A stretch of 34,973 bases of DNA from an uncultured Massilimicrobiota sp. (GTDB lineage: Bacteria > Bacillota_I > Bacilli_A > Erysipelotrichales > Coprobacillaceae). The stretch is taken from NCBI GenBank assembly GCA_944325245.1, contig CALUZM010000018.1, forward strand, positions 1 to 34,973, read 5' to 3'. Positions 5,793 through 12,054 of this stretch are shown piece by piece. Made by a program: the position numbers and the translations under genes. The number at the start of each line of letters is the position of its first letter. The stretch's first letter is position 1. The notes under the pieces were generated by a model, which saw only the letters and a list, made by a program, of their open reading frames with translations, made no database searches and was not told the DNA's origin.

Positions 5793-5833
5793 ATTATAAC
5801 ATCATAATGTATTTGTGTAAAGATTATAATGTT
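5793..5833 (-). promoter_or_regulatory. PTS operon promoter with GntR-type operator
   Basis: Minus-strand promoter TTTACA (5816-5821), 17 bp, TATAAT (5793-5798). The spacer holds ACATTATGATGT (5799-5810), a near-palindrome continuing into the -10 as ATGTTATAAT. A second half-site ATTATAATGTT lies at 5823-5833 over the -35. The same element recurs at 5915-5940 and 11235-11276, so the GntR encoded at 11353 is the likely ligand-responsive repressor. Confidence 0.75.
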
Positions 5834-5909: not shown

Positions 5910-5940
5910 TTTACTTTTAAACATTATAATGTTATAATGT
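5910..5940 (+). promoter_or_regulatory. Promoter/operator of the amidohydrolase operon
   Basis: TTTACT (5910-5915), 17 bp, TATAAT (5933-5938). The spacer carries the perfect 14-bp palindrome AACATTATAATGTT (5920-5933), and the whole reads CATTATAATGTTATAATG, as at the chr/gntR promoter. Bound repressor would cover the spacer and the -10. The predicted start near 5945 leaves a leader of about 27 nt. Confidence 0.75.
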
Positions 5941-5971: not shown

Positions 5972-7093
5972 ATGTCAAAGTTATTAATAAAAAATGCTCA
6001 TTTTATAGATGGTAATATTTTTGATATTTACATTGAAAATAATATCATAAAAACAATAGGAACAAACTTAAATATTTCATCACAAAGAATTCCTACAATC
6101 TATTTACATGACGATGAATATATCAGTTCTGGCTGGATTGACTCTCATACTCATTGTTTTGAAAAATTTGAAATCTATGCTGACAACTGTGAAGAAATTG
6201 GCTACAGATCTGGCGTGACAACCGTCATAGATGCCGGAACTGCAGGTGCTGACAATATTGAAGAATTCTATAATCAAACAAAAAATTGTATAACACATGT
6301 CTATTCTCTTCTTAATATTTCAAAAACAGGGATATATGCTCAAAATGAATTATCTGATATGAACCATATCGATATAAAAGCTTTTCAAAATGCATATTTA
6401 CAGTATCCGAATTTTATTATAGGGGTCAAAGCAAGACTTAGTAAAAGTGTCATTGGCAGCAATGGTGATTTACCACTTTATAAAGCTATAGAAATAGCAA
6501 ATCTGACGGATCTCCCTCTCATGGTTCATATTGGAACAGCTCCTTTAGAGTTATCTAAGATATGCCAATACTTACGTCCAAAAGATATTATTACGCATAT
6601 TTATAATCCAAAAGAAAATGGTATTTGGGATGGGCAACACATTAAGCCGTGCGTATTGGAAGCTTATCAAAAAGGAATATATTTTGATTTGGGTCACGGA
6701 ACGGATAGTTTCTCATTCGACATCTTAAATTATGCTAATCAAAATCATCTGAAAGTCTATAGTATTAGCAGCGATATTTATCATCGTAATCGTAAGAATG
6801 GTCCTGTTTATGATCTAGCAACAACTATGACCAAACTTTATCATCATGGATACAGCCTAAAAGAAGTTATTGATTGCGTAACAATTCATCCTGCGAACAT
6901 GTTTCATTTACATCATATAGGAAAAATTGAAAAAGGATATCAGGCCGATTTCACAATATTTAAACTTACTAATAAAGCAAAAAAACTTATTGATTCAACC
7001 GGAAAATCAATAACCGTTTCATCTTATATTCAACCTACAGCAGTTATTATCAATAGCAAATATATTCAATTAAAGGAGAAGAACAATGGATAA
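5972..7093 (+). CDS. Amidohydrolase/deacetylase, EF_0837 family
   Basis: Metal-dependent amidohydrolase of the family found next to DgaE/DgaF homologues in Enterococcus and Aeromonas; the natural substrate is not established to my knowledge. Of 373 residues, the visible metal site is complete: HTH (His59, His61), a probable carbamylated Lys153 in GVKARLS, His186 in LMVHIG, His209 in ITHIYNP, and Asp268 in SISSDIY. A C-terminal composite beta-domain (GKIEKGYQADFTIF) is normal for the superfamily. AAAGGA precedes ATG 5972. It is the first gene of a four-gene operon and its end overlaps the next start by 8 bp. In this pathway the likely job is removal of an N-acyl group (for example acetyl) from an amino-sugar acid; lactam or lactone hydrolysis are alternatives. 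Confidence 0.9.
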   Translation: MSKLLIKNAHFIDGNIFDIYIENNIIKTIGTNLNISSQRIPTIYLHDDEYISSGWIDSHTHCFEKFEIYADNCEEIGYRSGVTTVIDAGTAGADNIEEFYNQTKNCITHVYSLLNISKTGIYAQNELSDMNHIDIKAFQNAYLQYPNFIIGVKARLSKSVIGSNGDLPLYKAIEIANLTDLPLMVHIGTAPLELSKICQYLRPKDIITHIYNPKENGIWDGQHIKPCVLEAYQKGIYFDLGHGTDSFSFDILNYANQNHLKVYSISSDIYHRNRKNGPVYDLATTMTKLYHHGYSLKEVIDCVTIHPANMFHLHHIGKIEKGYQADFTIFKLTNKAKKLIDSTGKSITVSSYIQPTAVIINSKYIQLKEKNNG

Positions 7094-8180
7094 CATTTAT
7101 GATAAATACCATATTAGTCACATAATAAACGCTTCTGGGAAAATGACAATTTTAGGCGGTTCGCGTCTTAGTGAAGAAGTCTGTGAATATATGAAATTTG
7201 GTGCAAACCATTTTTTTGAAATCAAAGATTTACTTAATAAAACAGGTGATTATCTAGCTCAATTAATCGGAGTTGAATCCGCATATATTGTAAACAGCGC
7301 CTCAGGCGCTATTGCCCAAAGTGTAGCAAGCTGTATATCCAAAGGAAATATACAAGATATACTTCATCCATATAATTTTGAAAATAAAAAAAGAGAAATT
7401 GTTATTTGTAAAGGTCATAATGTCGATTATGGAACACCTATAGAATTAACAATTAGTCTAGGTGGAGGAAAAATTATAGAAGCAGGTTATGCGAATCGTT
7501 GCACATTAGAACATGTACAATCTTGCATTAATGAAAATACCGCTGCACTCATTTATGTCAAATCCCATCATTGCGTGCAAAAAGAAATGCCTGACATTCA
7601 AAGTTTTATTCAGTTAGCCCATCAAAATCAGTTGCCAGTTATTATAGATGCAGCAGCAGAAGAAGATTTATTGAAATATTATAAAATGGATGGTGATATT
7701 ATCATTTATAGTGGAACAAAAGCTTTAGAAGGTCCTACCTCTGGATTAATCATTGGAAAAAAAGCTTTTGTAGAACAAATAAAAAAACAAAGTCTTGGAA
7801 TTGGAAGAGTTATGAAAATTGGCAAAGAAAATATTTTAGGACTTGTCCATGCAATCGAATGCTATTTACAACACCAACATTCAACTTTAGAGCAACAAAT
7901 TCAACGTTTAGAACCATTCAATAAAAAAATCAATCAAATCAACGGGCTCTCAGCACGATGTGTACAAGATGAAGCTGGTCGTTTGATTATCAGAAGTGAA
8001 ATTACTTTTTTAAATGGAAATGCTTTAGAAATTGTTCAAAAACTAAAAGAAGGAAAAACCAAAATATATACTCGTGATTACCATGCCAATGAAGGAAAAA
8101 TAGAAATTGATATTAGAGATGTTACTGATCATGAATTAGACATAATTTATGAAAAAATAGCAACAATAATGAAAGGATAA
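7086..8180 (+). CDS. dgaE: DgaE-type PLP enzyme (SelA-related ammonia-lyase)
   Basis: PLP-dependent enzyme of the SelA-like family whose characterised member, Salmonella DgaE, converts D-glucosaminate-6-phosphate to 2-keto-3-deoxygluconate-6-phosphate plus ammonia. The 364 residues include a VNSASGAI phosphate/substrate loop (70-77), Asp188 in IIDAAAEEDL for the PLP ring nitrogen, and the Schiff-base Lys212 in YSGTKALEGPTSG. AAGGAG lies just before ATG 7086, inside the end of the upstream gene, so translation is coupled. The next gene encodes the partner aldolase, as in Salmonella. A true selenocysteine synthase would be longer and sit with selB, so that reading is rejected. The exact amino-sugar acid and its phosphorylation state are inferred. 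Confidence 0.88.
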   Translation: MDNIYDKYHISHIINASGKMTILGGSRLSEEVCEYMKFGANHFFEIKDLLNKTGDYLAQLIGVESAYIVNSASGAIAQSVASCISKGNIQDILHPYNFENKKREIVICKGHNVDYGTPIELTISLGGGKIIEAGYANRCTLEHVQSCINENTAALIYVKSHHCVQKEMPDIQSFIQLAHQNQLPVIIDAAAEEDLLKYYKMDGDIIIYSGTKALEGPTSGLIIGKKAFVEQIKKQSLGIGRVMKIGKENILGLVHAIECYLQHQHSTLEQQIQRLEPFNKKINQINGLSARCVQDEAGRLIIRSEITFLNGNALEIVQKLKEGKTKIYTRDYHANEGKIEIDIRDVTDHELDIIYEKIATIMKG

Positions 8181-8185
8181 TGATT

Positions 8186-8920
8186 ATGAAAAAAACACCC
8201 AATTATTTAAATAATAAAATTTGTATCAATGTTTTGGCTAATTCTTTAGAAAATGCCAAAGAAATTTATAAAATGACAAATGGTCATGTTTTAATAGGAT
8301 TACTCTCTAAAAATTATCAAAATGTTGATGATGCAGTAACTGATATGAAAAAATATGCAGTCGAAACTAACAATTCCATTTCTGTTGGTTTAGGTGCAGG
8401 AGATCCTAATCAATGGGAAATGGTGGCAGAAATTGCCAAAAAAGTTCAGCCACAACATGTAAATCAAGTTTTTACAGGTATTGGTTATACTCGTGCCTTA
8501 TTAGGACAGAATGAAACGATTATTAACGGATTGATTTCACCAAGTGGAATAGTAGGCATGGTTAAAATTTCAACAGGACCTTTAAGTTCAAAAAATGTAC
8601 CAGCAATTATACCTGTTGAAACTGCCATTGATATGTTAAAAGATATGGGATGTGACTCCATCAAATTTTTCCCTATGAAAGGACTCTCTACAAAAGAAGA
8701 ATATACAGCAGTATGTCATGCATGTGCTAAAATGGACTTTATGATTGAGCCAACAGGTGGCATTGATTTGGAGAATTTTGAAGAAATCTGTAAGATAGCA
8801 TTAGAGGCGGGAGTCAAAAAAATCATCCCTCATGTTTATACATCTATTATCGATAAAGAAACAGGTTGTACAAAAATTGAAGACATTCAAAAATTATATG
8901 AAATGATGAAGAGGTTATAG
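8186..8920 (+). CDS. dgaF: DgaF-type 2-dehydro-3-deoxy-6-phosphogluconate aldolase
   Basis: Member of the KDGP aldolase family (DgaF), which splits 2-keto-3-deoxygluconate-6-phosphate into pyruvate and glyceraldehyde-3-phosphate. At 244 residues it has the family length and opens MKKTPNYLNNKICINVLAN. Visible motifs are SVGLGAGDPNQW, VKISTGPLS, a probable Schiff-base Lys160 in SIKFFPMKG, and MIEPTGGIDLENF. I chose ATG 8186 over ATG 8180 because AAAGGA is only three to four bases from the first ATG and nine from the second. It follows dgaE without a gap and precedes the kinase by 2 bp, so it is mid-operon. Confidence in the family is high; the sugar stereochemistry is unproven. Confidence 0.88.
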   Translation: MKKTPNYLNNKICINVLANSLENAKEIYKMTNGHVLIGLLSKNYQNVDDAVTDMKKYAVETNNSISVGLGAGDPNQWEMVAEIAKKVQPQHVNQVFTGIGYTRALLGQNETIINGLISPSGIVGMVKISTGPLSSKNVPAIIPVETAIDMLKDMGCDSIKFFPMKGLSTKEEYTAVCHACAKMDFMIEPTGGIDLENFEEICKIALEAGVKKIIPHVYTSIIDKETGCTKIEDIQKLYEMMKRL

Positions 8921-8922
8921 AA

Positions 8923-9927
8923 ATGAAAATACTTGCTTTTGGAGAAGTGATGATGCGAATGATGCCATCCAACTATAAAACATTATCTCAAACAAATACT
9001 CTCGAATTTCTTTTTACCGGTACTGGAATCAATGTATTGTCAGGCCTTTATCAGATGGGACATCAAGTTTATATTGTTACCAAACTTCCTGATAATAATG
9101 TTGGTAAAGCCGCCAGTGCAGAGATCAGAAAATTAGGTATTCATGATTGCTATATTTGTTATGGCGGCAACCATATAGGGATATACTTTTTAGAACAAGG
9201 TATAGGAAATCGTGCTAGTCAGGTTACATATTTAAACAGAAAAGATAGTTCATTTTGTTTGAGCCAAATATCAGATTATGATTTTAGTTGTTTAGATGGC
9301 ATGGACGCTTTACATATATGTGGAATTTCATTAGCAGTCAACGAAAACTTAAGACAAATTACATATAAATTTATTGAAGAAGCAAAAAAACGTCATGTTA
9401 AAATTATATTTGATTGTAATTATCGTCCTAGTCTATGGGCTCATCAGTCTTTTTGTGCCAAAGAGATATATGAAAATGTTCTTAAACAGGCTGATATTGT
9501 TTTTGCTGGACTCAAAGACGCCACTTTATTATTAAATAAAAAAATAGATTCATCCCTTTCTCATATAGAACAAATAAAAGAAGCATGTCGTCAAATGAGT
9601 CACGATTATCAGATAGAAACTATATTCGGAACCATTCGTAATACTCAGAATCATATATCTACATTAAATGGATATATGTATAATAGCAATCAATTCTTGA
9701 TGAGTCCTTCCTACGAATTGACCATATATGATCGCATTGGAGCAGGAGATGGTTTTGCTGCTGGAGCAATTCATGGCTATTTTTCAAACATGGATCCTCA
9801 TCTTCTTATTCAATATGCCACTGTTAGTGGTTTATTAGCACATACAACTTATGGTGATAGTCCTATCATCGGAGAGGATACTATATTAGATTTCATAAAA
9901 AATGGATGCGTACTTCTCAAACGTTAA
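8923..9927 (+). CDS. PfkB-family sugar kinase, probable KDG kinase
   Basis: Ribokinase-fold kinase that probably phosphorylates 2-keto-3-deoxygluconate, or the amino-sugar acid itself, in this pathway. The 334-residue protein starts MKILAFGEVMMRM, has an N-terminal FTGTGINVLSGL substrate region typical of KDG kinases, and the second PfkB signature DRIGAGDGFAAG (270-281) with catalytic Asp276. It begins 2 bp after dgaF and is last before a terminator. A kinase is not needed if the PTS phosphorylates the sugar acid directly, as in Salmonella. Its presence suggests the acid arrives unphosphorylated, for instance as the reducing-end unit of a disaccharide cut by the GH4 enzyme. That step is inference. 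Confidence 0.87.
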   Translation: MKILAFGEVMMRMMPSNYKTLSQTNTLEFLFTGTGINVLSGLYQMGHQVYIVTKLPDNNVGKAASAEIRKLGIHDCYICYGGNHIGIYFLEQGIGNRASQVTYLNRKDSSFCLSQISDYDFSCLDGMDALHICGISLAVNENLRQITYKFIEEAKKRHVKIIFDCNYRPSLWAHQSFCAKEIYENVLKQADIVFAGLKDATLLLNKKIDSSLSHIEQIKEACRQMSHDYQIETIFGTIRNTQNHISTLNGYMYNSNQFLMSPSYELTIYDRIGAGDGFAAGAIHGYFSNMDPHLLIQYATVSGLLAHTTYGDSPIIGEDTILDFIKNGCVLLKR

Positions 9928-10105: not shown

Positions 10106-10678
10106 TTAAACACCAAATTGGAAAACAATACCCACAACTGCACTAATTGCAATTAAAAGTATTGGATGCCAATGCGTCTTTTTTTCTACAACATAAATAA
10201 TAATTGCTAGAATAATTCCCTTTATAACAAATAAATCCAGCAATTGTCCAGTTTGTTGAAATGCATCAATATTAATTAAAGCAATTTTGACAACACTCAT
10301 TCCAGCTGCTGCTATCATTGCAATTGAAGCTGGTCTCAATCCTAAAAATACAGCTTCAACATATTTATTTTCTTTAAACTTATTTAAAATTCTTGCTATG
10401 ATTAAAATGATAATAATAGAAGGAGCGACCAAACCAACAGTAGCAGAAATCCCACCTAATATTCCACTTACATTATATCCCGCATAACTTGCCATATTGA
10501 CACCAATAGCTCCAGGTGTTGATTCTGCGATAGCAATCATATTTGCAACATCACCATGAGTAAACCAGCCCATTGTATCAGATAAATCATACAAAAATGG
10601 CAAAGTTGCCAAACCTCCTCCAATTGAGAACAATCCAACATAAAAGAAACGTATAAAAAGTTGAAATAATAATGCCAT
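10106..10678 (-). CDS. CHR (chromate transporter) family half-size protein B
   Basis: One of a pair of single-domain CHR-family membrane proteins. The 190 residues contain the diagnostic FSIGGGLATLPFLY segment near the N-terminus, IAIAESTPGAIGVNMASYAGYNVSG and about six hydrophobic stretches. Its ATG overlaps the stop of the upstream partner (TAATG) and a GAGGAGG lies just upstream, so the two are translated as a pair. In full-length ChrA both halves are fused; paired short CHR proteins are known in Bacillota. Some CHR proteins export chromate, but the true anion for short pairs is often unknown. Sharing an operator with sugar-catabolism operons makes a role in moving an organic or sulfated anion of that pathway worth considering. 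Confidence 0.9.
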   Translation of the reverse strand: MALLFQLFIRFFYVGLFSIGGGLATLPFLYDLSDTMGWFTHGDVANMIAIAESTPGAIGVNMASYAGYNVSGILGGISATVGLVAPSIIIILIIARILNKFKENKYVEAVFLGLRPASIAMIAAAGMSVVKIALINIDAFQQTGQLLDLFVIKGIILAIIIYVVEKKTHWHPILLIAISAVVGIVFQFGV

Positions 10679-11220
10679 TACTGATTCCCTCCTCTAGCCA
10701 TGAAATAAACAATACCAACAATAGCTGCAAGTATAACTAAAATAGCTGGTGATATTGATGTAAATAAAGATAACAAGAAAACAACTGTAAAAATAAATAA
10801 TGCCATTTTATTAACAATAGATTTTTTCCATAGACGTTCGACAGCATTCAAAATAAGAACACATACTGCCACTCTTATACCCGCAAATGCATTTTTAACT
10901 ATTTCTAATTCAGCAAAATTATTTAAACAGGCTGCAATAATCATTAATAAAATACATGGAACAAAAACAAATCCTAAAGTTGCAACAATTCCTCCAATAA
11001 CACCTTTCCTTTTATTGCCAATAAAAGTGGAAACATTTACAGCGATGATCCCTGGCGTACATTGCCCAATTGCAAAATAATCCATCAATTCTTCATCTGT
11101 TGCCCAACCTCTTTTCTCAACAAATTCTCTTTGTAAAACAGGTAACATAGCATATCCACCACCAAAAGTAACACTCCCTATTTTTGCAAAAGTCACAAAA
11201 AGATTCACTAATTCCTTCAT
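10678..11220 (-). CDS. CHR (chromate transporter) family half-size protein A
   Basis: First gene of the CHR pair, 180 residues. It carries the family motif FGGGYAMLPVLQREFVEKRGW at about residues 19-39, then IGQCTPGIIAVNVSTFIG and a glycine-rich GVIGGIVATLGFVFVP membrane segment, with five to six predicted membrane spans. GGAGGG precedes ATG 11220. It is transcribed leftward from the symmetric promoter at 11235-11276 with a leader of only about 20 nt. Its partner starts at the overlapping stop/start. The two proteins probably assemble as an antiparallel heterodimer, as proposed for short CHR pairs. Substrate unknown. Confidence 0.9.
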   Translation of the reverse strand: MKELVNLFVTFAKIGSVTFGGGYAMLPVLQREFVEKRGWATDEELMDYFAIGQCTPGIIAVNVSTFIGNKRKGVIGGIVATLGFVFVPCILLMIIAACLNNFAELEIVKNAFAGIRVAVCVLILNAVERLWKKSIVNKMALFIFTVVFLLSLFTSISPAILVILAAIVGIVYFMARGGNQ

Positions 11221-11234
11221 TTTTCAGCCCTCCA

Positions 11235-11276
11235 TTTACATAAATTCATTATAACATTATAATGAATTTATGTAAA
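11235..11276. promoter_or_regulatory. Perfectly symmetric bidirectional promoter/operator of chr and gntR
   Basis: A perfect 42-bp palindrome: left arm TTTACATAAATTCATTATAA (11235-11254), CA (11255-11256), then the exact reverse complement of the arm (11257-11276). It contains TTTACA-17-TATAAT rightward (11235-11240, 11258-11263, toward gntR) and the identical promoter leftward (11271-11276, 11248-11253, toward chr). The two -10 boxes lie inside each other's spacers, so polymerase can use only one direction at a time. The core CATTATAATGTTATAATG is shared with the promoters at 5793-5833 and 5910-5940. Confidence 0.85.
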
Positions 11277-11312
11277 TAAAATCACAATTCTTTACAATAT
11301 TTCTTTTTTTAT

Positions 11313-11326
11313 ATGTTATAATGTAA
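11313..11326 (+). promoter_or_regulatory. Second -10/half-operator before gntR
   Basis: ATGTTATAATGTAA contains a TATAAT (11317-11322) and repeats the ATGTTATAATG half of the shared operator. A TTTACA lies 20 bp upstream (11291-11296), longer than optimal. It may be a weaker proximal promoter or an autoregulatory site 30 bp before the start codon. Confidence 0.5.
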
Positions 11327-11352: not shown

Positions 11353-12054
11353 ATGCCAGAAAAAGTACCACTCTATTACTCTATAATGGAAGTTTTAAAA
11401 GATTCTATTATTAATGGAATCTATCCAGTAGGCACTTTCTTACCTACAGAAACAGAATTAGAAAAACAATTCAATGTTAGTAAAATCACAGTAAGAAAAG
11501 CTATTGAATTATTAGAAAATGATGGTTATGTTTCAAAAAAAAGTGGCAAAGGAACAACTGTAATCAGTAATAATATTTTTAATAAATTATCCAATGGTCA
11601 ATCATTTTCTTCCATCTTAAATCAACAGGGATATCAAGTTACAAAAGAGCACACACAATTTGAATATATGGATATAGATCCACAAAATGAGCTATTTCCA
11701 TATTTTTCAAGGAAATGCTTAAAAATCACAAGATGTTACTATTTAGATGGTCAACCTTATATTCATTTTACACACTATCTTCCTAGTTCTCTTCATATAC
11801 CTCAAATATCTACTCCTAATGATTTTTCATTATATACATATCTTTATCAAAGCAATATGTCTGTAAGCCAATTTGATGATGAATTTTATGTTGAATTTCC
11901 ACCACTTGATATTTTAAAATCATTAAATCTAGAAAATGGACCGGTATTAGGAAGAAAACGTATTACTTACGACACAAGTCATCATGTTATTGAAATTTCT
12001 TACGCAAGATATAATACACGTATTCATAACTATCAAATCAAATCCAAAGTTTAA
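11353..12054 (+). CDS. GntR/HutC-family regulator (UTRA domain)
   Basis: Transcription factor of 233 residues: winged helix at about 5-72 (LPTETELEKQFNVSKITVRK, then ENDGYVSKKSGKGT wing) and a C-terminal UTRA effector domain (about 90-230, with FEYMDID, CYYLDGQPYI and the closing EISYARYN strand). HutC-type members usually repress and are released by a sugar phosphate or pathway intermediate. AAAGGAGG precedes ATG 11353. It stands alone, read from the palindromic promoter it shares with the chr pair. Because the same operator lies at the PTS and amidohydrolase operons, it most likely controls all three plus itself; the effector may be a phosphorylated amino-sugar acid or 2-keto-3-deoxy acid phosphate (inference). 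Confidence 0.93.
   Translation: MPEKVPLYYSIMEVLKDSIINGIYPVGTFLPTETELEKQFNVSKITVRKAIELLENDGYVSKKSGKGTTVISNNIFNKLSNGQSFSSILNQQGYQVTKEHTQFEYMDIDPQNELFPYFSRKCLKITRCYYLDGQPYIHFTHYLPSSLHIPQISTPNDFSLYTYLYQSNMSVSQFDDEFYVEFPPLDILKSLNLENGPVLGRKRITYDTSHHVIEISYARYNTRIHNYQIKSKV

Follow-up and report, generated by a model that had tools for sequence, protein, structure and literature searches.

What does a long, error-free palindrome do between a pair of chromate transporter genes and the gene of a GntR-type regulator that faces away from them? The question is raised by the window, i.e. the whole stretch of 34,973 nucleotides analysed here (contig CALUZM010000018.1 of an uncultured Massilimicrobiota sp.). 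The initial annotation described a perfect 42-bp palindrome acting as a fully symmetric promoter of both genes, with a regulator site within the promoter DNA and with mutual exclusion of polymerase setting the ratio of regulator to transporter. The reading favoured here, with a probability of roughly 0.7, is that the palindrome is the leftward chr promoter with a GntR/HutC operator built in, and not the two-way switch of the gene pair. The features concerned are the following.

10106 to 10678, minus strand: chr subunit 2 (chromate transporter family)
10678 to 11220, minus strand: chr subunit 1 (chromate transporter family)
11234 to 11277, no strand: perfect palindrome, its left end abutting the chr Shine-Dalgarno sequence GGAGGG (CCCTCC at 11228-11233 of the plus strand)
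11235 to 11263, plus strand: possible rightward promoter, TTTACA at 11235-11240, 17-bp spacer, TATAAT at 11258-11263, no TG
11248 to 11276, minus strand: predicted leftward chr promoter, TTTACA at 11276-11271, 17-bp spacer ending in TGT, TATAAT at 11253-11248
11247 to 11264, no strand: core motif CATTATAACATTATAATG, the putative GntR operator
11314 to 11322, plus strand: predicted extended -10 promoter of gntR itself, TGTTATAAT, conserved in relatives
11314 to 11325: weaker box TGTTATAATGTA, overlapping the gntR extended -10 promoter
11353 to 12054, plus strand: gntR, a GntR/HutC regulator with a UTRA domain

The palindrome at 11235-11276 is present as described and is extended by the pair A11234/T11277 to an exact 44 bp, with 21-nt arms around a CA centre at 11255-11256. 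As a background, 835 kb of the 2.47-Mb genome (32% GC) were taken as stretches and found to contain three perfect inverted repeats whose arms measure at least 21 nt and whose gap is no longer than 8. Of the three, the chr palindrome was the tightest (gap of 2) and the poorest in GC (11%); the other two, with gaps of 5 and 7, look like ordinary hairpins. About 0.004 such repeats are expected per 2.47-Mb genome at the local base composition, and the longest arm in 1 Mb of a third-order Markov simulation of low-GC DNA was 15 nt as compared with the 21 nt observed. Because of this, the chr palindrome is non-random, far beyond chance.

Each strand of the palindrome carries TTTACA-17-TATAAT with 11 of 12 consensus matches, as had been noted. 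The symmetry of the promoter is, however, incomplete, because the central dinucleotide is TG on the minus strand but CA on the plus strand, so that the TGn of an extended -10 is given to the leftward (chr) strand alone. The leftward promoter of chr, which is supported, has a predicted start at 11241 with a leader of 21 nt, and its architecture recurs at other promoters of the regulon. The predicted chr transcript would begin with AUGUAA (11241-11236, minus strand), a start codon followed immediately by a stop. The rightward set has a predicted start at 11270, 83 nt upstream of gntR, and its 17-bp spacing was not found in the relatives compared.

The centre of the palindrome was linked to two further promoters of the same locus, as its core motif, CATTATAATGTTATAATG, is found again in the spacer and -10 of the promoters of a phosphotransferase system (PTS) and of a dga-type operon.

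5793 to 5833, minus strand: third copy, the predicted PTS promoter, TTTACA-17-TATAAT, with a box at 5798-5811 and a second box at 5820-5833, 22 bp away
5910 to 5938, plus strand: second operator-promoter copy (predicted), TTTACT-17-TATAAT, with the box AACATTATAATGTT at 5920-5933

The second copy precedes an operon (5972-9927) of amidohydrolase, DgaE-like, DgaF-like and KDG-kinase-like genes, i.e. an amino-sugar-acid operon. Its gene order and promoter differ from those of the relatives, where the operon follows the PTS gene. The 2.47-Mb genome contains just two exact occurrences of TTATAATGTTATAATG, one inside the palindrome and the other at 5924-5939, ahead of the dga-type operon, and the best single 14-bp box at chr is AACATTATAATGAA (11253-11266). 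The composite TTTAC-N7-CATTATNATGTTAT, running from the -35 through the -10, is exact at three promoters of the locus, and within this genome the promoters of chr and PTS are identical at 26 of 29 positions from -35 to -10 (counted by eye). PTS promoters in the window (5793-5833) and in five relatives (L036-L040) carry two boxes 22 bp apart, a distance of about two helical turns, and the upstream box of the pair, AACATTATAATC, abuts the -35.

The core motif CATTATAATGTTATAATG is also found at the PTS promoters of relatives. Six of the 43 family genomes carry gntR (E of 1e-40 or better), and the exact composite was present in five of these six versus none of the 37 genomes without gntR, with zero matches for reversed-pattern controls. 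In G005, G009, G022 and G025 the orthologous gntR locus has it at the PTS promoter, and the sixth gntR carrier, G016, has the degenerate composite TTTACATACAATGATTATTATGTTAC. As would be expected of an operator, the site is common to the promoters of the regulon and co-occurs with the regulator, and the regulator site proposed within the promoter DNA is therefore likely on comparative grounds. The motif overlaps a -10-like sequence, and the promoter itself may account for part of its conservation.

Gene order in the relatives also bears on the membership of chr. A single putative operator in G009 precedes a set of same-strand genes, namely those of the PTS, another enzyme, amidohydrolase, dgaE, dgaF and the kinase. 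G005 and G016 both have the gene order PTS, a gamma-glutamyltransferase-like (GGT) gene, chr1 and chr2, followed by gntR facing them. Since the chr pair lies there on the same strand downstream of the PTS and GGT genes, chr belongs to the predicted regulon independently of the palindrome, and by gene order would do so even without a promoter of its own.

The product of gntR matched both PF00392 (N-terminal GntR winged helix-turn-helix) and PF07702 (C-terminal UTRA) above cut-off, which places it in the HutC subfamily, and its nearest relative of solved structure is NagR/YvoA. NagR contacts G-5 and G-4 via Arg38 and Arg48 (PMC4333415). These two G-reading arginines align with Thr34 and Lys44 of the GntR, and both replacements are kept in the orthologs of G009, G005 and G016. 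The GT-N4-AC palindrome (NyGTMTAKACNy) was not found in the shared box, which is AACATTATAATGTT, and the Thr34/Lys44 replacement would fit such an A/T-rich operator. GntR relatives with 41-44% identity lie directly after a KDG-kinase-like gene in a Roseburia sp. and in Paenibacillus (L021, L022), a gene order which suggests that the link between regulator and pathway is old. No operator box was found in the flanks examined beside these two relatives; the operon promoters lie outside those flanks.

The proposed mechanism starts from the central CATTATAATGTTATAATG as the operator, which would lie within the spacer and the extended -10 of the chr promoter. When bound to it, GntR would mask the -10 and keep polymerase out; repression is probable because HutC-family regulators usually work in this way. 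A metabolite of the PTS/dga pathway is the probable inducer that would free the operator, and the PTS and dga-type operons would be driven by the same operator-promoter. Most transcription of the regulator gene would start at its own extended -10 promoter, where the partial box could serve autoregulation.

A true two-way promoter, in which polymerase binds in either orientation, chr is read to the left and gntR to the right, and mutual exclusion sets the ratio, is unlikely. It is favoured by the near-consensus elements on both strands, by the genes lying in both directions and by the finding that symmetric promoters are common in bacteria (PMC12825309). Also in relatives, a TTTAC (GTAAA on the promoter strand) occurs on the downstream side of the PTS promoter in G009, G022 and G025 (L036 9760-9800, L037 7720-7766 and L038 6066-6110), so that a weak rightward -35 may have existed before the palindrome became perfect and may have been selected. 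This element lies, however, 15 bp and not 17 bp from TATAAT, and the extended -10 is limited to the minus strand. The predicted (unmapped) starts at 11241 and 11270 are 29 bp apart and belong to separate -10s (11248-11253 and 11258-11263), whereas the bidirectional promoters described by Warman and colleagues have starts 7-25 bp apart and a shared -10 (PMC10268837). Mutual exclusion would result from an active rightward set, and the setting of a ratio is possible, but bidirectional promoters tested in E. coli had a basal activity too low for polymerase competition (PMC12825309).

The regulator gene itself provides a further argument against the two-way promoter. About 30 nt upstream of its start codon and downstream of the predicted start at 11270 lies TGTTATAAT, and the orthologous loci have the same element in G009 and G022, TGTTAAAAT in G016 and TGCTATAAT in G025. 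The relatives keep this extended -10 but lack the palindrome, and the conserved element before gntR is thus TGTTATAAT and not the rightward set of the palindrome. Since gntR has a conserved promoter of its own, it need not depend on the palindrome; rightward transcription from there is possible but not needed for its expression. Of the claim that the palindrome is the promoter of both genes, the chr half is therefore supported and the gntR half is not.

A palindrome selected as a fully symmetric operator, with arms that add GntR contacts so that two dimers or a tetramer occupy the 44-bp site, is unlikely. The perfect extension far past chance would agree with it, and the paired boxes of the PTS promoters make binding of several dimers plausible. 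Counted outward from the centre, the mirror matches for 21 contiguous positions at chr, for 11 at dga before it is broken, and for 1-5 contiguous positions at PTS. The outer arms are missing from the dga and PTS promoters and from every relative compared, which argues against added contacts. The arm that is conserved is the -35/spacer arm, which is common to the other promoters and required by the promoter anyway; the downstream arm is not shared. Distinctly unlikely is also a mirrored promoter-operator in which the GntR site and the orientation of polymerase jointly set the chr:gntR ratio, with the CA/TG centre as the sole determinant of bias.

Under the preferred reading of a chr promoter with a built-in operator, the conserved operator would reach no further than about 11 nt from the centre and would not include the outer arms. 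These arms are probably the outcome of a templated (quasipalindrome) mutation or of local selection. The mirrored arm, in and around the initially transcribed region, would have been made by a short template switch that perfected a pre-existing quasipalindrome; in the simplest and most likely account, this switch was primed by the imperfect repeat of the operator core and copied the -35 arm to the opposite side. The rightward TTTACA-17-TATAAT would then be a by-product, with some transcription toward gntR. Quasipalindrome template-switch mutations have been documented in E. coli (PMC7202029). Selection is kept as an alternative because the downstream TTTAC in G009, G022 and G025 is not explained by template switching alone. 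The relatives compared are related at genus level or more distantly; their arms are imperfect, and none is near enough to show a single event.

Control of the promoter or of replication by an extruded cruciform or hairpin is highly improbable. The single-strand DNA fold of -15.2 kcal/mol (z -8.2) and the AT-rich, perfect palindrome with its small loop are in line with it, but any inverted repeat folds in this way, the structure is not conserved, and promoter, operator and mirrored arm already account for the sequence. The end of a mobile element or a dispersed palindromic repeat, which a long perfect inverted repeat might suggest, can be dismissed, as no second copy of the arm was found in the genome at up to 2 mismatches and the matches with 3 mismatches are single arms. 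An RNA hairpin or terminator was likewise rejected: no predicted transcript spans the palindrome, and its stem is A/T-rich.

The proposed origin of the arms resembles known quasipalindrome template-switch products, in that the operator core, itself a short and imperfect inverted repeat, now has perfect outer arms; in contrast to the documented mutations, the event is here a proposed one. The regulation resembles that of GntR/HutC repressors such as NagR/YvoA with its dre sites, DasR and TreR, where a winged helix-turn-helix and UTRA regulator adjoins its likely targets and a palindromic site lies in the target promoters, with several sites per regulon. Unlike in usual HutC systems, the putative operator is AACATTATAATGTT-like and lacks GT-N4-AC, and both G-reading arginines of NagR are replaced; the A/T-rich operator of the regulon would fit this loss. 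HutC exceptions with other motifs are listed in a motif survey (PMC4494728). Literature searches for a GntR regulator of a chromate transporter and for a GntR regulator of glucosaminate genes found nothing specific. The GntR/HutC regulon of a PTS, a dga-type amino-sugar-acid operon and a chr pair with an A/T-rich operator appears to be undescribed, although of an ordinary kind. As in the promoters of the Warman class, -10/-35 sets lie on both strands of one short segment and polymerases would exclude simultaneous binding. Unlike in that class, there are separate -10s, both -35s, a perfect 44-bp mirror and an extended -10 on one strand only. The perfect mirror could serve as a natural test construct, since its arms are identical and a swap of the 2-bp centre would isolate the effect of TGn on direction.
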